From positions 1-28,366 of the IMG/VR virus record IMGVR_UViG_3300024431_000024: DNA of 28,366 nucleotides; one strand, 5' to 3'. Of this stretch, positions 2-24,146 are shown one piece after another. A program made the translations under genes and the position numbers. The first letter of the stretch is position 1. Each line of letters opens with the position of its first letter. Below the pieces are notes generated by a model, which had not been told where the DNA came from, made no database searches, and saw only the letters and a list, made by a program, of their open reading frames with translations. Source of the DNA: a virus.

Positions 2-1000
2 AGCAATGTGCAAAGTGGCTCATTGACGGTTGGTAGCACTACCGAGAATGTCACGATCGCGGCTGCTGTACTGGCAAACTCATTGCTGTTTTTCACGGTG
101 GCTGCTGGCTCAAATCGCCCCGATGAGACTGCGATCAGAGGCGAACTTCAGGCCACAACCAACATCCGGTTCACATCGAACTCTGCCGGCGGCATCCAGC
201 GGGTCATCAATTGGTTCGTGGTGGAGTGGACATCTGGCGTTGATGTACAGCGTGGCAGCCTGGCGTTAAGTACCATTTCACAGACCGCCAGCATCTCAGC
301 AGTCATCTTAGATGACACTTTCCTGCTCCCCGGAGGCGAGAACAGGGCTGGCTCGACATGGGGCAATGACGACTGTTATGCGGCTGACATCAACACCACG
401 ACCACGGTGCGGTTTCGCAAGTATAACGGGTCCAGTGGAACGGTCGCGTGGCAGGTCTGCGAGTTCACTACCGGCGCTGACATTAGTGTGCAGCGCGGAG
501 AGGAGGATACGGCCGACGCCAGCCTCACAGAGATCCCGGTCACGATCACCGCCGTCGATCAAGCGAAGAGCTTCCTCACGTCACAGTGGTCGCTGAATGG
601 TAACTGGCTTCCAAACGCGGCGCCCCTCCTCTTAAAGTTTAACAGTGACACCGAGTTCGAGTTCCAGAAAGGCGTTGCCAATAACGATGAACAGCGGGCC
701 ACTTGGGAAGTCGTTGAGTTGGCCGACAATACGCAGGTTCAGACCGGCCTGGCGGCGTTTGCTAATGCCGATACATCGAACTCCCCTACAATAACTTCGG
801 TTGATACCAGCAAGACGTGTGTGTTCAACGGCGGCGACCAGTCGTTGTCGAATGGCGGCGGCAAGACCGCGTTCGGCGGCGACGATGCAGTCGGCTATTG
901 CAACGCGCGAGATGAGCTGACCGATTCGACTACAATTACTTTGCGTCGAATTGAGACTGGTGCTACCAGTGATTTCCAGTGGCAGGTCATCGAGTGGGAT
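2..1000 (+). repeat. Four ~80-residue protein repeats
   Basis: Repeat units begin at the motifs VQSG, VQRG, VQRG and VQTG and close with a tryptophan-valine-glutamate-like core. They are seen at protein level; the DNA has diverged, so the duplication is old. Confidence 0.6.
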
Positions 1001-2305
1001 GCGGCGCCGGGCGGCGCAATTGCCGCCGCCCCGGCGCTGGCGTTCGCGGTAGTCCCCGACCTCACGGGCGACGGCCAGCTCTCCGCGGCCGCCGCGATGC
1101 TCTTCAACCTGGCGCCCGACTTGAACGCCCAGGGCCAGCTCGACGGGGCTCCGGCCCTGGCGCTCAACCTTGCCGCGGATCTCCAGGCTCGAGGCGAACT
1201 CGAAGCCGCCGCCGCCCTGGCCTTCACGGTCGCGGCGAACCTCCAGGGCCGCGGACTCATCGACGCCGCGGCCTCGATCGTCTTCACCGTTGCGGCGGAC
1301 CTCCAGGCGGAAGGCCAGCTCGACGCGGCCGCCGTGATGGCGCTCACCGTGGCGGCGGATCTACGCGCGACCGGAGCCCTCGACGCGGCGGCGACCCTGG
1401 TCTTCGCCCTGGTTGCGGATCTCCAGGACGCGGCCGAGGGAGCGATCAGAGCGAACGCCCAGCTCGCGTTCACCGTTGCCGCGGATCTCGAAGCCGAAGG
1501 CGCGCTCGACGCGGCCGCGGCGATGGCCTTCTCCCTGGTTGCGGACCTCCAGGCTCGCGGCCAGCTCCAGGCCTCGGCCCAGCTCGCGTTCGCCCTGGCG
1601 GCGGACCTCAAGGCCCAGGGACAACTCACCGCGGCGGCGGCTTTGCTCTTCAACGTCGCGGCGGATCTCGACGCCCAGGGACAACTCACCGCGGCCCCGG
1701 CCCTGGTCTTCTCGGCCGTGGCGAACCTGGCGGCCGGCGGCCAGCTCGACGCGGCGGTCGCCCTGGCGTTCACGGTATCGGCGGACCTACAAGATCAACC
1801 AGCCGACGGCGCGATCGACGCCTCGGCCTCCCTGGTCCTCACGCTCGTCGCGGATCTCCAGGCGCTCGGCCAGCTCGACGCGGCGGCCGACATGGTCTTC
1901 GATGTCGCGGCCGACTTGCTCGGCGAGGGCGCGATCACCGCGGCGCCGGCGATGTCGTTCGCCGTGACGGCCGACGGTCGCCTGGTCGGCGGCATGGACG
2001 CCCAGGCCGCGCTCCAGTTCGGAGTCGTTGCGGATTTACAGGACGCGGCGGGCGGGCAGATCGCCGCGGCCGCCCAGATCACCCTCACCGCGGCGGCGGA
2101 TCTACTGGCGCGGGGATCGCTTTCCGCTCTCGCGCCTTTATCCTTCGCCGTGGTCGCGTTATTGTTCGACTCGGGCGCGCGCATCATCCCGAACTCGCTC
2201 CAGACCTTGCTCCGCTTTTTGGACAATAGCCGGCAAGACATCAACGAGGGGACCGACAACGTCACCCAGACACTCGAGGCGGGCCGCTCGAACTCGACCC
2301 AGTAG
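2..2305 (+). CDS. Repeat-built phage structural protein (5' end outside window)
   Basis: The reading frame is open to the left edge, so the true start lies upstream; the first possible internal start is a GTG at 8. About 767 residues are visible. The first ~333 are four imperfect ~80-residue repeats, each beginning VQ-S/R/T-G and ending in a W-x-V-x-E core (WFVVEW, WQVCEF, WEVVEL, WQVIEW). From about position 1013 come nineteen ~20-residue repeats of the type G-x-L-x-A-x-A-x-L-x-F-x-V-x-A-D-L, in which every second residue is small or hydrophobic, as expected for stacked beta strands. A short non-repeat tail follows. The gene sits just before the head-tail connector genes, so a capsid-associated fibre, decoration or spike protein is plausible. 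I do not recognise a named family, and the role is inferred from position and repeat structure only. Confidence 0.8.
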   Translation, partial: SNVQSGSLTVGSTTENVTIAAAVLANSLLFFTVAAGSNRPDETAIRGELQATTNIRFTSNSAGGIQRVINWFVVEWTSGVDVQRGSLALSTISQTASISAVILDDTFLLPGGENRAGSTWGNDDCYAADINTTTTVRFRKYNGSSGTVAWQVCEFTTGADISVQRGEEDTADASLTEIPVTITAVDQAKSFLTSQWSLNGNWLPNAAPLLLKFNSDTEFEFQKGVANNDEQRATWEVVELADNTQVQTGLAAFANADTSNSPTITSVDTSKTCVFNGGDQSLSNGGGKTAFGGDDAVGYCNARDELTDSTTITLRRIETGATSDFQWQVIEWDAAPGGAIAAAPALAFAVVPDLTGDGQLSAAAAMLFNLAPDLNAQGQLDGAPALALNLAADLQARGELEAAAALAFTVAANLQGRGLIDAAASIVFTVAADLQAEGQLDAAAVMALTVAADLRATGALDAAATLVFALVADLQDAAEGAIRANAQLAFTVAADLEAEGALDAAAAMAFSLVADLQARGQLQASAQLAFALAADLKAQGQLTAAAALLFNVAADLDAQGQLTAAPALVFSAVANLAAGGQLDAAVALAFTVSADLQDQPADGAIDASASLVLTLVADLQALGQLDAAADMVFDVAADLLGEGAITAAPAMSFAVTADGRLVGGMDAQAALQFGVVADLQDAAGGQIAAAAQITLTAAADLLARGSLSALAPLSFAVVALLFDSGARIIPNSLQTLLRFLDNSRQDINEGTDNVTQTLEAGRSNSTQ
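1013..2173 (+). repeat. Nineteen 60-bp coding repeats (20-residue units)
   Basis: The period is 20 residues (60 bp), with three units of 22-23 residues that carry short insertions (QDAAE, QDQPAD, QDAAG). Most units are degenerate, but 1613-1635 and 1673-1695 are identical over 23 bp exactly one period apart, which suggests a recent duplication or repair between neighbouring units. Confidence 0.85.
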
Positions 2306-4518: not shown

Positions 4519-4544
4519 GACGGCCTAACCTTTAGGAGACCGCC

Positions 4545-6059
4545 ATGTCTGACACTAATCGAGTCGGGCTTCGTTTTTTCAGAAGCTCACAACGGACGGC
4601 CCCGATCCCTGGCGGCCCGTTCAACCTCAACCAGCTCCGCTTCACGGGGACGCCGAACCTCGCGTTCGAGCCGAACACGATCGTCTCGAATGAGATCCGG
4701 CCCGACCGCCAGATCTCGGACCTCATCCTGGTCGGCGCCGAAGCCGGCGGCGACACGGGGATCGAGCTCTCGTTCGAGGCCTTCGACGCCCTCATCGAGG
4801 ACGGCCTCTTCTCGACCTTCGTCGCGACGATCCAGAAGCTCGGGACCGGCGAGATCACCGGCTTCGCGGCCGGCGACATCATCGTCGACGACGGCGCCGA
4901 CTTCATCGTCGGCCAGGTCCTCCGCCTCCAGAAGCTCCTCACCGGCGACGTCGGCGACGGCATCTTCGAGATCACCGCGATCGCGACGAACAACCTCGCG
5001 GTCAACCCGCTCGCGGGAACCGCGACGACGGCCATCCAGGGAACCGAGACGGCGGACGCCGACACCCGGCTCAACGTCTCCGGCTTCGCGGCCCAGGCGA
5101 ACGGCGACATCTCGGTCGTCGTCACCGGATCCGACGCGGTCTTCTCCTTCCCGACTGGCGCCCTCGACGACGCCTTCGGCCCAGGCCTTCCGATCCAGAT
5201 CGGCCAGTGGTTCAAGTTCGCCGACTTCTCGACCCCGTTGAACAACGTCTGGACCCGCGCGCGTGAGGTCGACCTCACGGCCGACACGATCACCGTCGAC
5301 GCACAGACCGGCATGGCGACCGACGCGGCCGCGACCGAACAGGTCCAGGCCTTCTACGGCTCGCGAGTCGAGAACGGCGCGGAGGCGATCGGCGACCACC
5401 AGAACGCGGTCGAGCGGCGCTTCGAGGATCACTCTCCGATCACGCGCGAGCTCTTCCTCGGCATGGCGCTCAACAACTTCAACATCACCCTCGCACCCCA
5501 GGCGATCGCGGTCGGCTCCTTGACCTGGTTCGGCTTCAACTCCGCCGTCTCGGACAACTCGCCGACCTATCCGGAGCTCTACGCGGCGCTCCCGGTCGAC
5601 GTGCCCGCCGAACAGTTCGACGTCTACAACACATCGAACGACATCGGCCGGCTCGGCCGAGGAGTGGATCCGATCGACGCCGCCGGCGTCAACTTCGTCC
5701 TCGAGGCGACGATCGAGATCAACAACAACCTCCGCCGCCAGCCAGCGGTCGGGGTCTTCGGCGCGAGCGGGATCGGCGTCGGCGAGCTCTCCGTGACGGG
5801 GACGCTCTCGACCTACTTCGACAACGACGAGATCCTCCAGATCATCCTCAACAACACGGAGACCTCGCTCGATCTCATCATGCAGGGAGCCGACGGCCGG
5901 ACAATGGTCTTCGACCTTCCTCGGATCAAGTTCTCCGGAGGAGCGCCAGACGTGCCAGGCAAGAACGCCGACGTCACGATCCCCGGAACCTACCAGGCAA
6001 TTCTCGACAAGGCGCTCGGCTACACGATCAGCGTCCAGCGCGTGAACTTCGCCCGGTAG
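4545..6059 (+). CDS. Major tail tube protein
   Basis: A 504-residue protein with ribosome site AGGAG at about 4534. The N-terminus (NRVGLRFFRSSQRTAPIPGG, then LRFTGTPNLAFEPNTIVSNEIRPDRQISDLILVGAEAGGD) matches the phage tail tube family start, where 'E-I-R-x-D-R-Q' and 'G-x-x-x-G-G' follow a short strand. It is about twice the length of a minimal tube protein. Residues ~95-260 carry an inserted beta-rich region, and a second tube-like part follows (SPITRELFLGMALNNF to the end). The insert could be a surface-exposed domain. The next two genes are chaperones and tape measure, which fits the standard order. Confidence 0.8.
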   Translation: MSDTNRVGLRFFRSSQRTAPIPGGPFNLNQLRFTGTPNLAFEPNTIVSNEIRPDRQISDLILVGAEAGGDTGIELSFEAFDALIEDGLFSTFVATIQKLGTGEITGFAAGDIIVDDGADFIVGQVLRLQKLLTGDVGDGIFEITAIATNNLAVNPLAGTATTAIQGTETADADTRLNVSGFAAQANGDISVVVTGSDAVFSFPTGALDDAFGPGLPIQIGQWFKFADFSTPLNNVWTRAREVDLTADTITVDAQTGMATDAAATEQVQAFYGSRVENGAEAIGDHQNAVERRFEDHSPITRELFLGMALNNFNITLAPQAIAVGSLTWFGFNSAVSDNSPTYPELYAALPVDVPAEQFDVYNTSNDIGRLGRGVDPIDAAGVNFVLEATIEINNNLRRQPAVGVFGASGIGVGELSVTGTLSTYFDNDEILQIILNNTETSLDLIMQGADGRTMVFDLPRIKFSGGAPDVPGKNADVTIPGTYQAILDKALGYTISVQRVNFAR

Positions 6060-6101
6060 CCATCAACGACAACCGGGTCGACGAGGCCCAGGAGGAAGAC
6101 C

Positions 6102-6551
6102 GTGAGAGTTTTCGAGGCCTTTGAAACCAGTGAACGGCTAACAAGTGAGGGGCGAGAGTGCGAGATCGAGTTCGGCGGGAGAGTCATCTGCAAGATCTGG
6201 GTCCGCCCCGCGGATCCGGTTCTCAATGCCGACTATCGTCGAGAGCTTTCCGAGCTCTCGGTCGGGCTTCTCAAGGACGGCAACGTCAACGAGATCGACG
6301 AGGACACGGACCGGCTCCTTCTCTGGAAGGTCTACGCCCGGAGCGTCATCTTGAAGATCACCTGGACGGATCCCGCGGACCAGAAGGACGCGAAGCTCAA
6401 GTTCAACCAGGCCATGACGCCAGCGAACCGCGAGAAGAACGCGATCGCATTGTTCAAGCGCGTCCCGAAGTTCTTCCAGGGCATCCAGGAGGTCGCCCGC
6501 CAGTGGTCGCAATACCGGGCCGCTCACGAAGAAGAAGCCGCGGGAAACTAG
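6102..6551 (+). CDS. Tail assembly chaperone G
   Basis: A 149-residue protein from GTG 6102, with GGAGGA 6 nt upstream. It is acidic and helical (RRELSELSVGLLKDGNVNEIDEDTDRLLLWKVYARSVI), of the size and position of lambda gpG-like chaperones that coat the tape measure during tail assembly. The last codons are GCG GGA AAC TAG; the heptamer G GGA AAC at 6542-6548 is a classic -1 slippery site, so a fraction of ribosomes should make the longer GT product. No similarity beyond position, size and the frameshift signal is claimed. Confidence 0.8.
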   Translation: MRVFEAFETSERLTSEGRECEIEFGGRVICKIWVRPADPVLNADYRRELSELSVGLLKDGNVNEIDEDTDRLLLWKVYARSVILKITWTDPADQKDAKLKFNQAMTPANREKNAIALFKRVPKFFQGIQEVARQWSQYRAAHEEEAAGN

Positions 6552-6937
6552 CCGCGGTCCTCGATCACACGCTCCGGCTCGGGGACTCGGAGGCCCAGGG
6601 GAAGGTCATCGCCGCGCACAAGGAGCGGGGCCTCACGCCGCCCGATCACCTGGTCAACCCGCCGAAGATCGAGCTCCGCTTCCTGGTCTACTGGGAGGCC
6701 TTCCAGGATCTCCAGACCGAGCGCGTGAGCTCGCGCCAGACGATCCCGATCGTGAAGATCCTCGACTATGCGGACCGCTACGGGCTCGACCCGGACACCT
6801 TGAAGCGGATCGTCTGGAAGACCGACCAGGTCCTCCTCGATCACTGGAAGGGCGTCGAGAAGTCGCTCGCCGACCAGGCCGAGGCCGAGAAGAACAAGGA
6901 CAAGAAGCCGACGCTCGGCGCGGGAGCTAAGACATGA
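6102..6937 (+). CDS. Tail assembly chaperone GT (-1 frameshift fusion)
   Basis: The predicted product joins 6102-6548 to 6548-6937 by a -1 shift, giving about 278 residues. The extension (LAAVLDHTLRLGDSEAQGK onward) has no start codon of its own with a ribosome site, lies exactly in the -1 frame and ends overlapping the tape measure ATG (ATGA). Its core (IELRFLVYWEAFQDLQTER ... TIPIVKILDYADRYGLDP) resembles T-type extensions of other siphoviruses, with a charged lysine-rich C-terminus. In lambda, GT bridges the tape measure and tube subunits. The signal and both frames are seen directly; the function is from the family. Confidence 0.8.
6542..6586 (+). promoter_or_regulatory. -1 ribosomal frameshift signal (GGGAAAC plus stem-loop)
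   Basis: Slippery heptamer GGGAAAC at 6542-6548 in the phase G GGA AAC, followed at once by the zero-frame TAG. After an 8-nt spacer, 6557-6564 (GTCCTCGA) can pair with 6579-6586 (TCGGGGAC): 8 bp with one G-U and a 14-nt loop. Spacer length and stem are within the usual range for -1 stimulators. Confidence 0.85.
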
Positions 6938-9174
6938 CCGATCGCGTCATCCGAGTCGTCCTCGATGGTTCCGGCGTTCGCCGTGGCGCGATCAGGGCGA
7001 AGAAGGACCTCCAGGGGATCCAGCAAAAGACGAAGGCCGTCACCGGACAATTCAAGGCGGCCGCCGCCGCCGCGGCCACGTTCGCCGCCGCCCTGGCGAT
7101 CCGCGAGATCGTCCAGCTCACGAACACCTACCAGTCACTCACGAACCGCCTCCGGGTCGTCACGGGCTCCACCGAGGAGCTCACCACGGCCTCCGAGCGT
7201 CTCTTCCAGATCGCCCAGGACACGCGCGCGCCCTTCGAGGCGACCGTCGGGCTCTTCTCCCGAGCCGCCATCGCGGCGGACGAGCTCGGGGCCAGCCAGG
7301 AGGAGCTCTTCCGGCTCACCGAACTCTCGGGCAAGGCCCTGGCCGTGTCCGGATCCAGCGCGGCCGAGGCGTCCGGCGCGCTTCGCCAGCTCTCCCAGTC
7401 GTTCTCGTCCGGTATCGTCCGCGGCGAGGAGTTCAACTCGATCCTCGAGGGCGCGTTCCCTCTCGCTCAAGCGGCGGCCCGTGGCCTGGACGCGGCGGGC
7501 GGATCCGTCGGTCGTCTTCGGACTCTGGTCATCGAGGGGAAGGTCTCGTCCCAGGAGTTCTTCCGCGCGATCCTCAAGGGCGGCGGGGAGCTCGACGAGC
7601 AGTTCGCGGCGACCGAGGTCACGATCTCCCAGGCCATCATCACGATCAACAACTCGCTCATCTCCTTCGTCGGGCGGATGGCCGACGCCTCCGGGGCCGG
7701 CCAGACGCTCACGACCGTCCTCGCCGACACCGCCGGCGTCATCGACGACCTCTCGGACGCCTTCACGGCGAACCTCTCCCCGACCGAAGAAGTGAACGGC
7801 GCGCTCCAGGTCTTCGTCACCGCGGCCCTCGTTGCGATCCGGGTCGTCGACAGTCTCTTCTCCTCGCTGTTTAATCTCGCCACGATCGGCTTCACGATAG
7901 TCGGCGAGAGAATCGGCGGGACGACCGCGGCCCTGGTCCAGTTTGCGAAGGGGAACGTCGACGAGTCCGTCGCGATCCTCAACGACCTCAACGAGCGCAA
8001 CCTCGAGACGATCACCGGCGGGATGCGGACCCTCCGCGACACCTTGATCTCCGACACTTCGTTCACGATCGAGGCATTGATCGAGCTCTGGGACGCCGGC
8101 TCGAGGAAGATCAGGGAGACCGCCCGCTCGGGATTAGAAGACGACGGAGGCGGCGGCGGAGGCGGCGGTCCTAGCGTGTCGGCCGAGGACTTCCAGGACG
8201 CCCAGGACGCGGTCCTCGAGTTCATCACGGCCCTCGAGAACCAGGAACAGATCCTCGCGCTCACGGCGGACCTCGGCGATGAAGCCGGCGCGGCGATCGC
8301 CATCTTCAAGGACGAGCTCGCTCTCGCCAGCGCGGAGGCGGACATCTTCGCCGACCTGGCTCCGACGGCGGCGGTCATGGAACTCCGGGAGGCCTTCCTG
8401 CAACTCGGCGCCGACGCCCAGGAGTCGATCCGGCTCTTCACCGAAGAGCTCGAGGCCGCGGATCTCGAGGCGAGCTTCGAGGACATCATCACCGCCCTCG
8501 AGACCGAGATCGAGCTCCTCAACGCGGACAACGAGGCGCTCGCCGCGAACGCCCAGCTCCGAGCCCTGGCGGCCGGCGCAACGGCCGAACAAGCGGCGAA
8601 GATCGGCGAGCTCACCGAGATCCTACTGGACGAGACCGACCGCCTCCGCGAACAGGAGGACGTCCTCACGGGCTTCTTCGAGGCCATCGGAGCAAGCGCC
8701 CAGCGCGAGCTCTCCGGCCTCCTGGCGGATCCCCTGGCCGAGGGCCTGGACGAGCTCCCGGCCCGCTTCGCGCGCGTCCTGCAACAACTGGCAGCCGACG
8801 CCCTGGCGGCCGAGATCTTCACCATCCTCCGGAACTTCGGCTCGAACGCCCCAGGCGGCGGCGCCGGCGGCTTCGCCCAGTTCGTCGGCGGACTCTTCGG
8901 CGGCGGCTTCCAGGCCGGCGGCCAGGTCTCCGCCGGCCGGTCGATCCTGGTCGGCGAACGCGGTCCCGAGTTTTTCAGTCCTCCGGGCGCCGGCTCGATC
9001 ACGCCGAACGTCAACATCTCCCAGGCGGCCCAGGCTCCGCCGGTCATCCAGATCGTCAACACGATCGACACGGCGGAGATCACGGCGGCCTTCAATTCCG
9101 GCGAGGGCGACACGGTCCTCCTCAATCGAATCGGCGCCAGGCGGACCGCCTTCCGCCAGGCGTTAGGAGTCTAA
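6934..9174 (+). CDS. Tape measure protein
   Basis: A 746-residue protein overlapping the previous stop as ATGA. Residues ~60-250 (LTNRLRVVTGSTEELTTASERL, FQIAQDTRAPFEATVGLFSRAA, then SGALRQLSQSFSSGIVRGEEFNSILEGAFP) are the tape-measure N-terminal domain found in many proteobacterial phages. A hydrophobic stretch follows around 290-330 (AALVAIRVVDSLFSSLFNLATIG), then a glycine run near residue 405 (eight glycines), long acidic helices at ~410-610, and a glycine-rich C-terminus with GERGPEFFSPPG, a motif common at tape-measure ends. If about 1.5 Å per residue applies, the tail would be roughly 110 nm. Confidence 0.92.
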   Translation: MTDRVIRVVLDGSGVRRGAIRAKKDLQGIQQKTKAVTGQFKAAAAAAATFAAALAIREIVQLTNTYQSLTNRLRVVTGSTEELTTASERLFQIAQDTRAPFEATVGLFSRAAIAADELGASQEELFRLTELSGKALAVSGSSAAEASGALRQLSQSFSSGIVRGEEFNSILEGAFPLAQAAARGLDAAGGSVGRLRTLVIEGKVSSQEFFRAILKGGGELDEQFAATEVTISQAIITINNSLISFVGRMADASGAGQTLTTVLADTAGVIDDLSDAFTANLSPTEEVNGALQVFVTAALVAIRVVDSLFSSLFNLATIGFTIVGERIGGTTAALVQFAKGNVDESVAILNDLNERNLETITGGMRTLRDTLISDTSFTIEALIELWDAGSRKIRETARSGLEDDGGGGGGGGPSVSAEDFQDAQDAVLEFITALENQEQILALTADLGDEAGAAIAIFKDELALASAEADIFADLAPTAAVMELREAFLQLGADAQESIRLFTEELEAADLEASFEDIITALETEIELLNADNEALAANAQLRALAAGATAEQAAKIGELTEILLDETDRLREQEDVLTGFFEAIGASAQRELSGLLADPLAEGLDELPARFARVLQQLAADALAAEIFTILRNFGSNAPGGGAGGFAQFVGGLFGGGFQAGGQVSAGRSILVGERGPEFFSPPGAGSITPNVNISQAAQAPPVIQIVNTIDTAEITAAFNSGEGDTVLLNRIGARRTAFRQALGV

Positions 9175-9175
9175 G

Positions 9176-10519
9176 ATGTCCTACCTCGAACAAGCTCTTC
9201 TCGCGGACGGCGTCCTCGCGGACGGCCGGATCGTCGCCTCGCTGGCGATGATCGAGCACTTGAAGAACCCGAACGTCTTGAGCCTCGACGCCATCGGCGG
9301 CAACAACGGCTCGGGCTATGTCGTCGGCGAGACCTTCGACATCGTCGGCGGGACCGCGGTCTCGATCAACGGCGTCACCCTGGTCGCCCGCGGGGTCGTC
9401 GTTGCGATCTCCGGCGATGACGTCACCGAGGTCAAGATCACGAGCTCGGGGATCTACACGTCGCTCCCAGGCGTGACGAACGTCGTCACGACGAACGCCT
9501 CGGGGATCGGCGACGATCTCCTCACGGTCGACCTCACGACCCAGGCGGCCCAGTGGACCGAAGACCGGAACACCTTCACGGATCTCCTCACCGACTTCGA
9601 GTGGATCGCGACCTCGGTCAAGGCGACGAACGCGCCGACGGTCGGCGTCGACGCCCAGCTCTCCGGAGCGAACGACGGCTTCCAGTTCATGACCGCCTCG
9701 AGCTTCAATTCGGGCGCGACCTTCCTCACCCAGCCAGGCGCGCCGCCTGATAACGAGATGTTCGCCGCGTGTCCGAACCAGGACCCGGACATCTTCATCT
9801 CGACGACCGAGCGGCGGATGAATTGCCTCGTCTCGGATGGCACGAATAAGCAGTATTTCGGGATCGGGCTCTTCATCCCGTTCACGAACTCCGACCTCAA
9901 CTACCCCTTCCCAGGCTTCGTTCACGCCCAGAGCCGCTCGATCCAGGCGATCAACGCGGCCAGGTCGAGCACGAACTCGGGGATCGTCAACCTCAACTCG
10001 TACACGCTCGCCGGCCAGCTCGGGCCGGTCCAGTATCGGGACAACGTGAGCCCGGCCTGGCTCGGGATCGCGCTCGACAACAACGACGGCGCGGAGGACC
10101 AGGACTCCCAGCTCTGGCCGATCTCGGCCTCCGGCGCCGGCTTCCAGTTCGCCTTCACCGACGCGCCGGTCCCGTCCGGATCCTCGGCCACGGCCGCGAA
10201 CATGATCCCGTTCGTCGTCAGCGCCGGCACGATGTCCGACCCGGAGTGGTTCCAGAACGCCGCCTCGTCGAAGATGCCCCAGGGCGTCGCGCCGCTCGGG
10301 CCTGGCGCTCGCCTCGCGCTCACCGGCCAGCTCCACATCATCAAGAACCAGCCCGGCGACGTGCAAGTGATCGGGGTCGTCGACGGCTGGGAGCAAGTTC
10401 ACGGCCGCGGCCTGGACGCCTTCGACGAGATCATCTCGTTCGACGGCCGCCGCTTCCTGGTATTCAACGACACCAACACGGCGGACATCTTCCGCTTCGT
10501 CGCAATGGAGAAGCTCTAG
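9176..10519 (+). CDS. Conserved tail-tip protein with GSGY/FDI domain
   Basis: A 447-residue protein starting 1 nt after the tape measure stop. Residues ~40-120 form a beta-rich domain with the signature GSGYVVGETFDIVGGT ... ARGVVVAISGDDVTEVKI ... SSGIYT, also present in the gene at 19424. The later part (FTDLLTDFEWIATS ... ERRMNCLVSDGTNKQYFGIGLFIPFTNSDLNYPFPGFVHAQS) resembles a conserved phage virion protein whose relatives carry a 'GFI-P-x-x-YPYP' core. Its position between tape measure and hub suggests a distal tail or baseplate component. No catalytic motif is seen and the exact function is unknown. Confidence 0.65.
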   Translation: MSYLEQALLADGVLADGRIVASLAMIEHLKNPNVLSLDAIGGNNGSGYVVGETFDIVGGTAVSINGVTLVARGVVVAISGDDVTEVKITSSGIYTSLPGVTNVVTTNASGIGDDLLTVDLTTQAAQWTEDRNTFTDLLTDFEWIATSVKATNAPTVGVDAQLSGANDGFQFMTASSFNSGATFLTQPGAPPDNEMFAACPNQDPDIFISTTERRMNCLVSDGTNKQYFGIGLFIPFTNSDLNYPFPGFVHAQSRSIQAINAARSSTNSGIVNLNSYTLAGQLGPVQYRDNVSPAWLGIALDNNDGAEDQDSQLWPISASGAGFQFAFTDAPVPSGSSATAANMIPFVVSAGTMSDPEWFQNAASSKMPQGVAPLGPGARLALTGQLHIIKNQPGDVQVIGVVDGWEQVHGRGLDAFDEIISFDGRRFLVFNDTNTADIFRFVAMEKL

Positions 10520-10521
10520 TC

Positions 10522-11766
10522 ATGCCATTCAGAACAGACACCGGAGGCTTCGAGCCAGGCGATGACGACATGGCCGACTTCCTCCAGGACATCGTCCTCC
10601 CCTTCGTCACCGACTCCTTCGTCGCCGGCGGCCTCGCCTGGATCCGCCAGACGCCGACCGAGGGCAACGGCTCACACCCGAATTTTAACTATATGTTCTC
10701 GCGCGGGGTCGTCGGGACCGAGCTCCCGCCGTTCTGGATGGCCGGGACGACGCTCAAGTCGCTCTTCATCTTCACCGGCTTCGGCAGTATCAACACGGGC
10801 CAGCAAATCTACGACCAGCCAGGGAACCCGATGAACTACCCGCCGAACGCCTCCCAGCCCTACAACGACCCCGGCTCGGAGTTCCACTCGCTCGGCTGCC
10901 AGTTCCTCAACACGGTCGTCGGGCCCTACGACTCCTTCTGGCTCTTCGGCGGCGCGGGCGCCGAGTATCTTCACATCGTCCTCAAGGTCAACTCGCGCCA
11001 GTATCGCCACTTTCACGTCGGGATGTTGACGCCGCTCCACACCGATCTCGACCCCGACTCGTTCTACATCACGGCCCATTGTGTCTCGAACCTGGACCCG
11101 GACGACCTGGACGGCGCGCAACGCTTCGGCGGCTCGAACACGGCGAGCACCGAGCACCAGCCGTACTCGGACTTTCATCGGTATCCGTTCGCCTTCCGCA
11201 ACCGGAACAACCTCCAGTTCTCCGGCGAGAACCTCCGCAACCGCGGCCTCCTCCTGTATATGCCGAACATCGGCGCGCTCGGCTTCGACTGGTATCACAA
11301 CCTGAGCATCGAGGGCAACGCCGACTCGGGCGCTCGCAACGCAACGACCCAGGGCAACATGAGCACCGTGACGACGACCGAGAAGCCTATCGGCGACGTC
11401 AACGCGAACTCGGACGACGTGCTCTTCGGCGTCGCGAATTGCTCCGGCTACAACGACGGCCTCGGGACGACGATGTTCTACTCCGACCCGACCTTCACGG
11501 CGAACTCCCAGGCGCTCGTCCCGATCCTGGTCGGCGCGGTCGTCGACTTCGAGAGCGATCGACGCATGGCGCCGGTCGCCCAGATCCCCGACATCTTCCG
11601 GATCAACATGAACAACCTCGACCCGGAACAGGAGATTCTCATCGGCTCGGACACCTACGTCGTCTTCCCGATGACGAACAAGGACAGCCAGAACACCCTC
11701 GCCAATGAGGGATACACCGGCTTCGAGGGCCTGGCTTACAAGAAAATCACGGCCGACGCGAGCTAG
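10522..11766 (+). CDS. Conserved tail-tip protein
   Basis: A 414-residue protein; ATG 10522 follows the upstream TAG by 2 nt. In-frame sequence upstream overlaps the previous gene and is rejected. Notable stretches are ELPPFWMAGTTLKSLFIFTGFG, VVGPYDSFWLFGGAGAEYLHIVLKV and QYRHFHVGMLTPL. I recall the combination 'FWLFGG... hydrophobic-H-x-V... YRHFHFG' from syntenic phage tail genes that lie between tape measure and the hub. It is rich in aromatic residues and asparagine, consistent with a beta-sandwich virion protein. Function is not established; a distal-tail or carbohydrate-contacting role is only an inference. Confidence 0.65.
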   Translation: MPFRTDTGGFEPGDDDMADFLQDIVLPFVTDSFVAGGLAWIRQTPTEGNGSHPNFNYMFSRGVVGTELPPFWMAGTTLKSLFIFTGFGSINTGQQIYDQPGNPMNYPPNASQPYNDPGSEFHSLGCQFLNTVVGPYDSFWLFGGAGAEYLHIVLKVNSRQYRHFHVGMLTPLHTDLDPDSFYITAHCVSNLDPDDLDGAQRFGGSNTASTEHQPYSDFHRYPFAFRNRNNLQFSGENLRNRGLLLYMPNIGALGFDWYHNLSIEGNADSGARNATTQGNMSTVTTTEKPIGDVNANSDDVLFGVANCSGYNDGLGTTMFYSDPTFTANSQALVPILVGAVVDFESDRRMAPVAQIPDIFRINMNNLDPEQEILIGSDTYVVFPMTNKDSQNTLANEGYTGFEGLAYKKITADAS

Positions 11767-11768
11767 TC

Positions 11769-13448
11769 ATGGCGGACAAGGGCGCCTTCTCGTTCGGGGT
11801 CCTGGAGTTCGCTCCAGGCAACCCGGAGTTCCCGGTCCTCCCGACCGGGCCGCCCCAGGGGACGCTCGACATCTTCTACCATGCGGCCTCGCTCACCTTC
11901 GAGCGGGCCGTCGTCCTCACCCTGGCCGAGCGGAGCGCCACGCCGGCGGATCTCTTCGCCGACTGGTTCCTGGGGACGACCTGGGTCTCGCCGGTCCCGG
12001 TCACGTTCGGCAACATCACGGCGACGAAGACGCGCGACGTCATCCTCCACAACACGAGGCGGAGCTCGGTCCAGCTCACCGCGATCGACGTCTCCGCGAT
12101 CGCCGGCTTGTCGGTCATCTCGCCGGCGCCGCCGATCGAGATCCCGTCGTTCTCCTCGATCACCGTGGTCTTCGAGGTCACGACCGAGGGCGAGGCGACG
12201 ATCGACGACGAGGTCATCTTCACGGTCGACGGCGGCGACATCGCGGTCCGCTTCACCGGCCGCCGGCTCATCATCTACAACACGATCCCCCAGAAGCCGA
12301 TCAAGGAGACGATCGCCTTCCTCACCGAGCGGATGTTCGCGATCAACGGGATCGAGCAAGTCATGGAACTCCGCCAGCTCCCGCGCTCGACGATCCAGAT
12401 CACCGAACGATTCACCGACAACGTCCGCCGCTCGAGCCAGCTCAACGTCATCAACGCCGCCGGCTTCTTGCGCGTCGGGATCCAGCTCTGGTACGAGGCC
12501 CGCGAGCTCACCCAGGCCGCGGTCGCGATCGACACGCTCGTCCAGATCTCGACGCTCGACATGGAGATCGCGGTCAACCAGGAGGTCTCCTTCGTCACGC
12601 CGGCCGGCATAGCCTCGAACGCGCTCACGGTCCTCTCGTTCACGCCGACCGAGATCCAGCTCGAGAGCCCGGTCGGGATCGTCCTCCCGCTCGGGACCGT
12701 CGGGATGCCGGTCAAGTACGGCTTCCTGCGACCGAAGGGCAAGATCCAGACCTGGCCGATCACCGCCGAGGACCTCACGCTCACCTTCGTCATCATCGAG
12801 TTCCGCGACATCGCGGCGCTCAATCTGGCCTATTTCGACACGCATCCGATCGACGGCCTCCCGCTCATGATCCAGCCGCTCTTCATCTCCGGGAGATCCC
12901 GCCGCGGCGAGATCATCCAGGCGCTCGACATCCTCGACTCGAGGACCGGCGACATCGCCAGCCGCCGGCAAGAACCGCTCGCGCGCCCCGGCCTGGACGT
13001 CCTGGTTCATCTCGAGAGCCTCGCGGATCAGTACGCCTGGCGCCAGTTCCTCTACTTCATCCGCGGCTCCTGGCTGCCGTTCTACGTTCCCAGCGGGACC
13101 GACGACTTGCCCCTGGGCGTCGACTTCTCCCTCGGCGGGAACACGCTCCAGATCGTCAACCAGGGCCTCCAGGAAGTCGACACGAGCCTCGCCCCGCGGC
13201 GCGACCTCAAGCTCACGGTCGAGGGCGTCGACTTCATCCGCCGCATCACGAGCGTCGCCGACGCCGGTCCGAACGAGACCGTCACGCTCGACTCGGTCAT
13301 CCCTGGGACCGGGACCGTCCCGATCGCCGATGTTAAGATCTCCTGGCTCTACCTGGTCCGGATCGAGAACGACACCGCGACCTTCAACCACTTGCGGACC
13401 GGCAACGCCGAGCTCCGCTTCCGAGTTCAAGGAGTGATCGCGACATGA
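11769..13448 (+). CDS. Distal tail / hub-associated protein
   Basis: A 559-residue protein, 2 nt after the previous stop, overlapping the next gene by 4 nt (ATGA). Residues ~80-175 look Ig-like (VILHNTRRSSVQLTAI ... PSFSSITVVFEVTTEGEATI ... GDIAVRFTGRRLIIY). The C-terminal third contains YAWRQFLYFIRGSWLPFYVPSGTDDLPLG, then a beta region ending DTATFNHLRTGNAELRFRVQ. The 'W-x-F...R-G-x-x-x-x-F-x-P-x...D-L' pattern is typical of tail proteins that sit next to the BR0599-type hub. I infer that it forms part of the tail-tip ring; this is not a firm family assignment. Confidence 0.65.
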   Translation: MADKGAFSFGVLEFAPGNPEFPVLPTGPPQGTLDIFYHAASLTFERAVVLTLAERSATPADLFADWFLGTTWVSPVPVTFGNITATKTRDVILHNTRRSSVQLTAIDVSAIAGLSVISPAPPIEIPSFSSITVVFEVTTEGEATIDDEVIFTVDGGDIAVRFTGRRLIIYNTIPQKPIKETIAFLTERMFAINGIEQVMELRQLPRSTIQITERFTDNVRRSSQLNVINAAGFLRVGIQLWYEARELTQAAVAIDTLVQISTLDMEIAVNQEVSFVTPAGIASNALTVLSFTPTEIQLESPVGIVLPLGTVGMPVKYGFLRPKGKIQTWPITAEDLTLTFVIIEFRDIAALNLAYFDTHPIDGLPLMIQPLFISGRSRRGEIIQALDILDSRTGDIASRRQEPLARPGLDVLVHLESLADQYAWRQFLYFIRGSWLPFYVPSGTDDLPLGVDFSLGGNTLQIVNQGLQEVDTSLAPRRDLKLTVEGVDFIRRITSVADAGPNETVTLDSVIPGTGTVPIADVKISWLYLVRIENDTATFNHLRTGNAELRFRVQGVIAT

Positions 13449-14362
13449 CGTTCGACGCCTTCGAGACTGGAGACGGCTCCCCCGTCGAGCTCCTCACGTT
13501 CGCGAACGGTCTCGAGATCTTCCGCTTCTCGAACCAGCTCGAGCCGATCACGGTCGGCTCGTTCGTCTTCGAGCCGCTCGCCTATGTCCGGAGCGCCTGG
13601 TCTCAATCGAAGGACCAGGACGACAACAACGTCCGCATGACCGCGCCGAAGGACTTCGTCGTCGCCCAGCTCTACCAGGGAACCCTCACGTCGAACGTCA
13701 CGACCGTCACGATCCAGCGGTTCCACGCCGACGACACGCCGACGCCCGAGATCCAGGTCGCCTGGAAGGGCCAGATCGTCTCGCTCCAGTATTCCGGCGA
13801 CAACGTCGAGTTCCTCATGGAGCCGATCACGAAGGGGACGGAGATCACGCCGCCCGACACCTTCTCGAGCCAGTGCAACGTGTTTCTCTTCCAGTCGCCC
13901 GGCTGCCTCCTCTCCGCGGACGACTTCAAGTTCGTCGCCACGGCGACCTCGATCACGCCGGACGGTCTCGAGCTCACGTTCAACGGCCTCCGCGTCCAGG
14001 CCGAGGCTCTGGATCTCATCCACGGCGGCCCGCCCGGATCCCTCTCCTCGGCCGAGCTCGACAATTACTGGCAAGGCGGACACATCCGAACCGGCGCCGG
14101 CGAGATCCGCGACATCATCGAGGGCGACGTCTCCGGAGATCCCGACACGATCCGGATCCCGCTCAAGTTCCGGAGCTTCATCGCCGGCGAGGGCGCGAGT
14201 GTCTTCGCCGGCTGCCGACTCACCCTGGACATCTGCCAGCGCAAGTTCGACAACGCGATCAACTTCCAGGGTTACGCCTACATTCCAGAGATCGACCCAG
14301 CGAACACCGAGCTCCCGCCGGGATCCAGGACGTCGCCCTCGAAGTTCTCGGGGCCGCAATGA
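13445..14362 (+). CDS. Tail-tip hub, BR0599/DUF2163-like, likely gpL analogue
   Basis: A 305-residue protein. It has exactly four cysteines: C144 and C154 (CNVFLFQSPGC) and C257 and C264 (GCRLTLDICQRKFDNAINFQGYAYIPEIDP). The last stretch is the hallmark of the phage BR0599 family ('G-C...C...F-x-N-x-x-N-F-x-G...P'). Lambda gpL and the matching hub proteins of related particles use four cysteines to hold an iron-sulfur cluster, so this protein may do the same. It overlaps both neighbours by 3-4 nt and lies directly before the J-like tip gene, the expected place for a hub. Confidence 0.8.
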   Translation: MTFDAFETGDGSPVELLTFANGLEIFRFSNQLEPITVGSFVFEPLAYVRSAWSQSKDQDDNNVRMTAPKDFVVAQLYQGTLTSNVTTVTIQRFHADDTPTPEIQVAWKGQIVSLQYSGDNVEFLMEPITKGTEITPPDTFSSQCNVFLFQSPGCLLSADDFKFVATATSITPDGLELTFNGLRVQAEALDLIHGGPPGSLSSAELDNYWQGGHIRTGAGEIRDIIEGDVSGDPDTIRIPLKFRSFIAGEGASVFAGCRLTLDICQRKFDNAINFQGYAYIPEIDPANTELPPGSRTSPSKFSGPQ

Positions 14363-21048: not shown

Positions 21049-21084
21049 AAAAAAGGCCCCGCCGGATGAGAGTCCGACGGGGCC
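21049..21084 (-). terminator. Intrinsic terminator of the leftward operon
   Basis: Read leftward: GGCCCCG, one mismatch, CGGA, a 6-nt loop, TCCG, mismatch, CGGGGCC, then six T. It lies about 47 nt after the stop at 21131 and has all parts of a Rho-independent terminator. The seven-gene operon above should end here. Confidence 0.9.
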
Positions 21085-22097: not shown

Positions 22098-22465
22098 GTC
22101 GTTCTCCTCGGTTCGTTGATCCCGCTCCAGTTCTTCTCCTGGCGCTTCCTTGCGCCGTCGCGTCTCTTCCGGGCCTTCGCCATGACCTCGGCCAGGGAGT
22201 CGCCCCAGATCGGCGCGACCGTCGGACCGTAGTGACTCCCGTCGCGCGTGTTGTGCGTGAACGCGACGAACGTCGGCGGCTCATCGGCGACCCGCGAGTC
22301 GTCCCAGTCATCGAACCAGATCTTCGCGTCGGGATCCTCCTCCCAGGAACACTCCCGGACGTCGATCTCGTAGCCGACCCAGCGGCCCCAGCGATCCAGG
22401 AGATCGAAGCCCGTGACCTCGCGGTCGAGCTTCGTGCTCCCGGTCGACTTCCACTTCTTGCTCAT
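22094..22465 (-). CDS. Conserved small phage protein, unknown
   Basis: A 123-residue protein starting at ATG 22465, overlapping its upstream neighbour by 4 nt. It is rich in tryptophan and acid residues (WGRWVGYEIDVRECSWEEDPDAKIWFDDWDD), followed by PPTFVAFTHNTRDGSHYGP and a basic C-terminal helix (EVMAKARKRRDGARKRQEKNW). The layout 'R-G..V-G-Y...F...H/T-R-D/N-G...Y/F-G' plus a basic alanine-rich helix resembles short proteins common in phage early regions whose role is not known. No enzyme motif seen. Confidence 0.75.
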   Translation of the reverse strand: MSKKWKSTGSTKLDREVTGFDLLDRWGRWVGYEIDVRECSWEEDPDAKIWFDDWDDSRVADEPPTFVAFTHNTRDGSHYGPTVAPIWGDSLAEVMAKARKRRDGARKRQEKNWSGINEPRRTT

Positions 22466-22668
22466 GTCGTGCCTCCTTCGCGGATCACCCGCGCGGCATG
22501 GACGAGGGCCCGGAACGGCGACGGCCGTCTCCTTCCCTCGATCCGGTTCAAGTGGACCCAGACGCCGGCCCAGTATCCGAACATCACGAACTTATACCGG
22601 GCGAGCGAGGCGAGCGCCTTGTCCGCCGCCTCCTGGATCTCGTGGTCGAGCTTGTCTTCCTTCTTCAT
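22462..22668 (-). CDS. Small phage protein with hydrophobic centre
   Basis: A 68-residue protein; ATG 22668 has AGGAGGA upstream. An acidic helix (KKEDKLDHEIQEAADKALASL) leads into ARYKFVMFGYWAGVWVHLNRIEG and then a basic region (RRRPSPFRALVHAARVIREGG). The centre is hydrophobic and aromatic but short for a clean membrane helix. The motif 'F-G-Y-W-A-x-x-W-V-H-L-N' is one I associate with small early phage proteins of unknown role. It starts an 18-nt gap after the TGT-like gene. Confidence 0.75.
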   Translation of the reverse strand: MKKEDKLDHEIQEAADKALASLARYKFVMFGYWAGVWVHLNRIEGRRRPSPFRALVHAARVIREGGTT

Positions 22669-22686
22669 CGTCGTCCTCCTACTGGT

Positions 22687-23484
22687 TCACAATTTCGGGC
22701 GCCTGGTCGGCGCGTCGTTGAAGTTCGTGATCGAGCTCGTGATCGTCTCGATGTCCATGTCGGCCAGGCCGGCGTCGACCTGGGCCTGGATCCGGCGCTT
22801 CATGAAGGCCGCCCGATCGTCGCCGTGTTCGGCCTTGTAGCGGCTATGGTTGACCGCGATGTTCGTCGAGTCGGCGCTCTCGAAGCGCGTGAGGCCGGCG
22901 AATACTCCGAGCCCTCGCATCAAGTGGATCCACGGCCGGCGATCATGATCGGCCTCGACCTGGTCGACGACGTCCGACGCCTCCTGGATCCGCGCCAGGT
23001 AGTCGCCGCGCTTCCGTTGAACGTCGAACTCGGCGCAAGATCCGAAGCCGACGAAGTTCATGATCCGGCACAACTTCGCGAGCTGGTCGAGCGACTCGTT
23101 CAGATGCCAGATTGCCATCGTCCGCTCGGGGAAGTCGGCGACCTCCTCGCGAAGCGCCCAGGAGATCTCGAGAAGGTTCTCGCGCTCGGATCCCTCGATG
23201 ACGTCCGGGATCACGGCGACCGCCTGGGAGCTCCGCGCCTGGGCTTCGTTCGCCCAGGTCCAGAACTCGTTCCGGTCGATCGCGCCGTTGCCCTGGCGCC
23301 AGTGAGTGAAGGCTCCGTTGTCGAGGACCAGGATCTCGTCGTCGCCGACGAACTCGATCGCCCGATCCAGGTCTCGAGGATCCGCGTGAGAGACGCAAAA
23401 CGACGAGCCGGCCAGGGACGGGAAGAGGGACTTCGGCGTCACCGGAGTCCCGACCACGATCCGCGGCTTGAAGATCTCGTTCAT
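22687..23484 (-). CDS. TGT/DpdA-like base-exchange enzyme (candidate DNA modification)
   Basis: A 265-residue protein overlapping its upstream neighbour by 4 nt. Its order of motifs follows the TIM barrel of tRNA-guanine transglycosylases: LVLDNGAF (D55; compare DSGGFQ with the general acid/base Asp), IPDVIEG (D94), IWHLNES (126-131), FVGFGSCAEF (146-153, substrate-binding glycine loop position), HLMRGLGV (187-194; compare LMGVG) and SADSTN (D205; compare the nucleophile Asp). Phage DpdA proteins of this fold insert 7-deazaguanines into DNA to resist restriction. It is shorter than typical TGT (about 370 residues) and lacks the usual zinc-binding cysteines at the C-terminus. No queuosine-pathway genes are in the window. 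A nucleosidase or other base-binding role is possible. Confidence 0.55.
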   Translation of the reverse strand: MNEIFKPRIVVGTPVTPKSLFPSLAGSSFCVSHADPRDLDRAIEFVGDDEILVLDNGAFTHWRQGNGAIDRNEFWTWANEAQARSSQAVAVIPDVIEGSERENLLEISWALREEVADFPERTMAIWHLNESLDQLAKLCRIMNFVGFGSCAEFDVQRKRGDYLARIQEASDVVDQVEADHDRRPWIHLMRGLGVFAGLTRFESADSTNIAVNHSRYKAEHGDDRAAFMKRRIQAQVDAGLADMDIETITSSITNFNDAPTRRPKL

Positions 23485-23672
23485 GCTCCGACGGCCTCGA
23501 AGATCAACGACGTCAACTCGACGCGAGTGTTGAAGATCTCGGCCTTGCGACGAGCTTCGTCGAGCGTGACGGCGAAGGCCTGGTCGCGATCGGTCGAGAT
23601 CCAGTCCTGGCCCGAGCGTCCGGTCCAGAAGAAGGTCTCGCCGTTCTTGTTTGCTGTGAGGATGAAGGTCAT
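23481..23672 (-). CDS. Small conserved phage protein, first gene of leftward operon
   Basis: A 63-residue protein; ATG 23672 has AGGAG 6 nt upstream. Sequence reads TFILTANKNGETFFWTGRSGQDWISTDRDQAFAVTLDEARRKAEIFN: a beta hairpin with 'F-F-W-T-G' followed by an alanine-rich helix, a layout common in very short phage early proteins. It overlaps the TGT-like gene by 4 nt and is the first gene downstream of the leftward promoter region. Function unknown. Confidence 0.75.
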   Translation of the reverse strand: MTFILTANKNGETFFWTGRSGQDWISTDRDQAFAVTLDEARRKAEIFNTRVELTSLIFEAVGA

Positions 23673-23700
23673 GTCGTGCTCCTGGTTGCCGCGGTAGATC

Positions 23701-23866: not shown

Positions 23867-23885
23867 CTCGTGTCGTGTTACAGTG
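23867..23885 (+). promoter_or_regulatory. Rightward extended -10 promoter
   Basis: TGTTACAGT (23876-23884) is an extended -10 of the form TGnTACAGT; -35 is poor. A start about 7 nt later leaves a ~25-nt leader with CAGGAG before GTG 23916. A 19-nt stretch here shares 15 bases, with the same spacing, with the element at 26246. Confidence 0.5.
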
Positions 23886-23915
23886 AGCGAACGACAACCC
23901 CAGGAGATGTTCCCC

Positions 23916-24146
23916 GTGAAACACCCGCACCTTCTCCGCCGAGCTCGAGCCGAGTCCGGCAAGACCGCCGAGGAGATCTGCCACTTGTCCGGATGCACTC
24001 GGCCGACGCTCTACCGTGTCGAGGCCGGCCAGGTCACGCCGAAGAGACAACTCGCCCGCTCGCTCTTCCGCGTTTACAACGGCCAGGTCCCGCTCGCTCA
24101 CATCTACGACCCGGAGTTCGCCGGCGAAGTGAGGGCCGCCTCGTGA
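23916..24146 (+). CDS. Cro/CI-like helix-turn-helix regulator
   Basis: A 76-residue protein from GTG 23916 with AGGAG 9 nt upstream; an ATG at 23907 abuts the ribosome site and a GTG at 23883 lies inside the promoter, so both are rejected. Residues ~4-55 fit the XRE/Cro helix-turn-helix fold: HLLRRARAESGKTAEEICHLSGCTRPTLYRVEAGQVTPKRQLARSL, with recognition helix near 28-36. Its size is right for Cro. It is the first rightward gene of a divergent control region with operator-like repeats, so it probably represses one or both early promoters. No larger CI partner is in the window. Confidence 0.8.
   Translation: MKHPHLLRRARAESGKTAEEICHLSGCTRPTLYRVEAGQVTPKRQLARSLFRVYNGQVPLAHIYDPEFAGEVRAAS

Follow-up and report, generated by a model that had tools for sequence, protein, structure and literature searches.

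A singleton-type DpdA-like protein in a phage genome fragment, and base-supply genes adjoining dpdA in its relatives

The protein encoded on the minus strand at positions 22687 to 23484 of the window (i.e., the whole 28.4-kb viral record analyzed, 66% GC) is, judging by its sequence, a DpdA of the "singleton DpdA" group of Hutinet 2019. It probably swaps selected DNA guanines for a 7-deazaguanine, with the base drawn from the host pathway or from uptake. What is new here is that the dpdA gene of many relatives directly adjoins a transporter gene or queD, in some cases with queE. Elsewhere, the window carries tape-measure and tail assembly genes (6934-14362), host prediction from the tail proteins giving distant matches only, to phages of mixed Proteobacteria. 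The C-terminal part (979-2305, plus strand) of window ORF 8-2305 contains many degenerate alanine-rich repeats of the approximate form A-L-x-F-x-V-A-A-D-L-Q-A-x-G-x-L. The dpdA gene and its conserved sites are listed below.

22687..23484, minus strand: singleton DpdA-like DNA-guanine transglycosylase, 265 aa (PHROG 887, hhalign, TIM barrel, and TGT structural match)
23308..23322, minus strand: DNGAF motif, residues 55-59; D55 ends barrel strand 3 (52-55)
23203..23205, minus strand: D94 (IPDVI motif), just past strand 4; kept in 153/153 members
23104..23106, minus strand: H127 (WH motif), at the end of strand 5; kept in 153/153; aligns with the H of CFHAGEP in 9g DpdA
22924..22926, minus strand: H187 (IH..R motif), at the end of strand 7; kept in 152/153; aligns with the H of KVHGFG in 9g DpdA
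22861..22878, minus strand: SADSTN motif, residues 203-208; D205 at strand 8; aligns with SCDSSS in 9g DpdA

The ORF starts with the ATG at 23484 and its stop codon ends at 22687. The earlier note had picked out DNGAF and SADSTN as motifs standing in tRNA-guanine transglycosylase (TGT) order, and this is not a chance resemblance: the protein matches PHROG 887, "queuine tRNA-ribosyltransferase" (E 1.7e-24), and tblastn with it retrieved 104 phage records (E<=1e-3). A scan with the family profile extended the count to at least 569 viral loci plus 72 loci in bacterial genomes. No Pfam or NCBIfam model matched the window protein, and neither the protein alone nor its profile retrieved anything useful from Pfam, NCBIfam, or the PDB sequences. 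The gene is also covered by a longer ORF on the plus strand (22498-23697, 399 aa), which was taken as a high-GC shadow frame because every relative found matches the minus-strand frame. Pairwise dN/dS values for dpdA (~0.3-0.47) indicate a gene under selection, though not extreme. The window gene is 85% identical to that of relative L001, many neighboring genes being at 35-60%, which places dpdA among the best conserved of the nearby genes and above nearly all of its neighbors in the leftward region.

Assignment to DpdA comes from profile alignment. In hhalign comparisons with Enterobacteria phage 9g DpdA, a profile built from 14 relatives gave an E value of 9.7e-7 and one built from 65 relatives 8.8e-10 (probability 96.5); against the DpdA of Pantoea phage MED16, the 65-relative profile reached 2.5e-52. 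The MED16 protein was also matched by direct BLAST (35% identity over 168 aa). Window and 9g stretches pair as LDNGAF/LDSGAF, IWHLNES/CFHAGEP, IHLMRGLG/KVHGFGI, and SADSTN/SCDSSS, so that D55, H127, H187, and D205 of the window protein align with 9g residues in a common D/H/H/D barrel core. MED16 and Salmonella phage 7-11 (DpdA/TGT_1 cluster, group 3) belong to the same family and a similar length class (~235-261 aa), share with the window the motifs LDNGAF, IPDVI, WH..E, IH.LR, and ADST/ADSS, and lack preQ0 genes, none of which was found in the 28.4-kb window either. The 9g protein (group 1) is longer, 317 aa with a C-terminal extension that the window protein does not have, and its gene is clustered with those for FolE, QueD, and Gat-QueC, none of which is found in the window.

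The AlphaFold model (pLDDT 90.5, pTM 0.89) is an eight-stranded TIM barrel with strands at residues 8-12, 27-32, 52-55, 88-91, 122-127, 144-148, 185-188, and 203-206, and the conserved residues sit at the strand ends. D55, closing strand 3, and D205, at strand 8, occupy the places of the two catalytic aspartates of TGT, D205 being the expected nucleophile. Among the aligned members, D55 and S203 are each kept in 153 of 153 and D205 in 152 of 153; the N-terminal motif is typically HG in relatives and VG in the window protein. The description of the protein as short and C-terminally reduced was accurate, since the model consists of the barrel alone, with no domain beyond it.

Among the solved structures compared by VIA-align, the top match was archaeosine TGT (Z 16.0, 225 residues, 3.3 Å), followed by bacterial TGTs. 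The common fold extends over ~225 residues at Z 15-16, with both aspartates in order. In a Foldseek search of the PDB, generic TIM barrels (DapA, tryptophan synthase alpha) ranked level with or ahead of TGT, and the result was not decisive. The fold by itself is not proof of TGT kinship because PdxJ (Z 15.1) comes within one Z unit of archaeosine TGT; it is the sequence link to DpdA that we take as proof. Neither the TGT profile PF01702 nor a sequence comparison with Escherichia coli TGT gave a match, and the TGT connection of the window protein rests on the fold and on DpdA. TGTs also carry a zinc cluster and a PUA or other C-terminal part, both missing from the window protein. The zinc site (CxCxxC...H after the barrel) is indeed absent from the 265-aa sequence, as claimed earlier, but its absence is usual for phage DpdA and is not a mark of divergence because 9g DpdA, a working enzyme, also lacks the CxCxxC cluster. 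The Cap10 protein of type IV CBASS has a TGT-family fold as well (Cap10-CdnD, 9ntn; Z 15.4 against the window protein), and its target is a protein terminus (PMC11996544). However, of the genes that accompany Cap10, i.e., those for a QueC-like protein, a CD-NTase, and an effector, none was noted near the window gene; for the QueC-like neighbor, Cap9, no QueC family member was detected in 49 relatives including L001 or among ten neighboring ORFs.

The protein had been thought a perhaps undescribed branch. This does not hold for the group, as phages with dpdA and no preQ0 genes were already described by Hutinet 2019 as a third, "singleton" group and the largest, with 76 phages (PMC6884629); their singleton example, 7-11, is matched by the window query. 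The DNA of 7-11 contained 50 dADG per million nucleotides, ~0.02% of G, and that of the dpdA-only Mycobacterium phage Orion no modification (PMC6884629). MED16, a member carrying dpdA alone, has dADG at ~0.13% of G, gene dependence not having been tested; the modification had minimal effect on the restriction enzymes tried (PMC8306585). Dependence of 7-deazaguanine in DNA on dpdA was established by deletion in phage CAjan (PMC6884629). The proposal that the enzyme blocks restriction is not supported, given that MED16 DNA was still cut (PMC8306585), and restriction protection in the singleton group is accordingly doubtful.

In the phylogeny, MED16, SW9, HK106, and 7-11 cluster together (SH-aLRT 99), and the window falls outside them in a clade of 18 rows (SH-aLRT 100). 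When 9g DpdA served as the outgroup, its very long branch attached to HK106/7-11; the resulting root was not used, and the later tree omits 9g. In terms of sequence, the window is a new clade within the known singleton group. In the temperate, P22-like or lambdoid phages BTP1 (L014:7986-8741) and HK106 (L018:7917-8717), a dpdA-like gene annotated as queuine tRNA-ribosyltransferase shares the left early region with kil, erf, abc2, and similar genes. In L040 (82-9426, plus strand), a DpdA-like domain is embedded in a 3,114-aa ORF with SNF2 helicase domains, resembling a phage polyvalent protein. One viral contig, L048, has two dpdA-like paralogues in near tandem (4535-5224 and 5965-6663).

Sister branches do have partner genes. 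Across 166 distinct loci, dpdA lies beside a gene for Vut_1 (PF02592, DUF165, queuosine-precursor transporter family) in 24 and beside a QueD-like gene in 15, with QueE too in 7 of these 15. All share the strand of dpdA and may lie on either side of it, in most cases with overlapping or abutting ends. Rhizobium phage RHph_N3_2 is one phage in which a DUF165 transporter gene accompanies dpdA.

Vut_1 adjoining dpdA, dpdA strand: L015:8615-9190, L044:6651-7166, L047:6600-7169, L049:6663-7172, L055:6669-7202, L068:6600-7178, L088:6663-7211, L108:6663-7196, and others
QueE plus QueD beside dpdA: L042:5076-5986, L043:2364-3271, L052:2749-3662, L063:5681-7286, L067:5369-7066, L074:1256-2307, L150:6610-7598

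The family identities are based on representatives: Vut_1 scored above the Pfam cutoff in 7 of 7 tested, a QueE representative matched PDB 4njg (E 1.1e-20), TIGR00697 and QueD equivalog matches fell under the NCBIfam cutoffs, and the short QueD-like proteins of L077 and L085 were slightly under the Pfam cutoff. The loci were fetched around dpdA, which may bias the adjacency counts; when 50 whole records were searched, each of the 7 Vut_1 matches and, the 9g control excepted, each of the 5 QueD-family (PTPS) matches adjoined dpdA. QueC was found in 0 of those 49 relatives and FolE in 0 of 48, with 9g scoring as the positive control in both searches, so that phages with QueE and QueD may supply the pathway part-way only. 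On the tree, the transporter label requires 13 changes and the QueD label 10, i.e., the links have been gained or lost many times. Transporter and QueD together were observed at 0 loci against 2.2 expected (P 0.09), an exclusion that is not significant by itself. Hutinet 2019 reported YhhQ homologues in some phages, uncorrelated with group (PMC6884629); no earlier report of dpdA-transporter or dpdA-QueD adjacency was found in the literature searched.

The adjacency supports, at the level of gene content, the use of a host-made or imported base. The window itself has no QueD or QueE among its ORFs, the record being a 28.4-kb fragment, and neither a gene for QueC, QueD, QueE, or FolE nor a transporter gene was found in the 40.4-kb relative L001, in agreement with the earlier statement that 7-deazaguanine synthesis genes are lacking nearby. 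Because supply genes (transporter or QueD/QueE) are also lacking in the window's own 18-row clade, we infer its base source and product by homology; on our analysis, a host-derived base, in line with the salvaged base considered in the earlier note, is the best reading for the window phage.

The gene was also described as part of an early leftward operon, and its surroundings are as follows.

23481..23672, minus strand: small ORF, 63 aa; its stop overlaps the dpdA start codon, suggesting translational coupling
22462..22668, minus strand: 68-aa ORF just downstream of dpdA; 79% identity in L001, present with dpdA in the closest relatives L001, L003, and L024; no family
21055..21084, minus strand: terminator-like stem-loop with a T6 tail (12-pair stem, 10 GC pairs), which may end the leftward operon
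23883..24146, plus strand: HTH transcriptional regulator (PHROG 2439, E 5.6e-6), divergent from the leftward operon

A leftward operon appears plausible from the overlap with the preceding ORF, the further small ORFs that follow dpdA in the same orientation, the terminator-like stem, and the divergent regulator. "Early" is supposition, as no sigma-70 promoter match was found in the operon. Rfam models picked out no RNA family, the preQ1 riboswitch included, when run on the window and on 13 relatives that have supply genes.

We propose that the TIM-barrel transglycosylase would act on selected guanines of the phage DNA, breaking the glycosidic bond with D205 as the nucleophile and D55 as general acid/base, and would join a 7-deazaguanine (preQ0 or one of its derivatives; ADG is what was measured in relatives) in place of the guanine. 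The base would not be phage-made but would come from the host queuosine pathway or uptake. The expected outcome would be sparse modification, at a density like that in 7-11 and MED16, and not a wholesale exchange of guanine, presumably with some benefit to the phage.

The same barrel could instead act on RNA, exchanging guanine in host or phage tRNA and altering decoding during infection with the DNA untouched. TGTs are the best solved structural matches, and the transporter and QueD/QueE genes of relatives would be equally useful for tRNA; nevertheless, the window protein has no post-barrel tRNA-binding domain, the closest characterized relatives have the base in their phage DNA, and a host equipped with a queuosine pathway has a TGT of its own, which makes an RNA substrate unlikely. 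Base exchange is in principle also reversible, and an enzyme that removes 7-deazaguanine from DNA, or disturbs Cap10/CBASS-type protein conjugates, could serve as counter-defense. The gene does lie among small accessory genes, near ral, abc2, and erf in BTP1, and Cap10-CdnD is among the best solved matches. However, Cap10 ties with all TGT-fold proteins, a removal enzyme would need neither a base importer nor QueD/QueE as a neighbor, and dADG is present in MED16 DNA; we consider such a role improbable.

Loss of catalysis, leaving a relic with a binding or regulatory role, would accommodate the unmodified DNA of Orion despite its dpdA (PMC6884629) and a dN/dS that is not very low. The essentially invariant active-site residues over 153 members and a conservation relative to L001 that exceeds nearly all leftward-region neighbors argue against it, and we regard it as very improbable. 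Returning to DNA modification by a singleton-type DpdA, the window's 18-row clade might conceivably have abandoned bulk camouflage and instead mark phage or host DNA at specific sequences, or interfere with 7-deazaguanine conjugates of host defense (e.g., type IV CBASS), although we hold this to be rather unlikely.

Of the phage DpdA groups in Hutinet 2019, the singletons were both the most numerous and the least understood, their activity without synthesis genes having been doubtful. The repeated gain or loss of a precursor transporter or QueD/QueE beside dpdA turns this into a testable case for active enzymes fed with a base supplied by the host or the environment. Singleton DpdAs also occur in temperate lambdoid and P22-like phages such as HK106 and BTP1, which are amenable to laboratory study.
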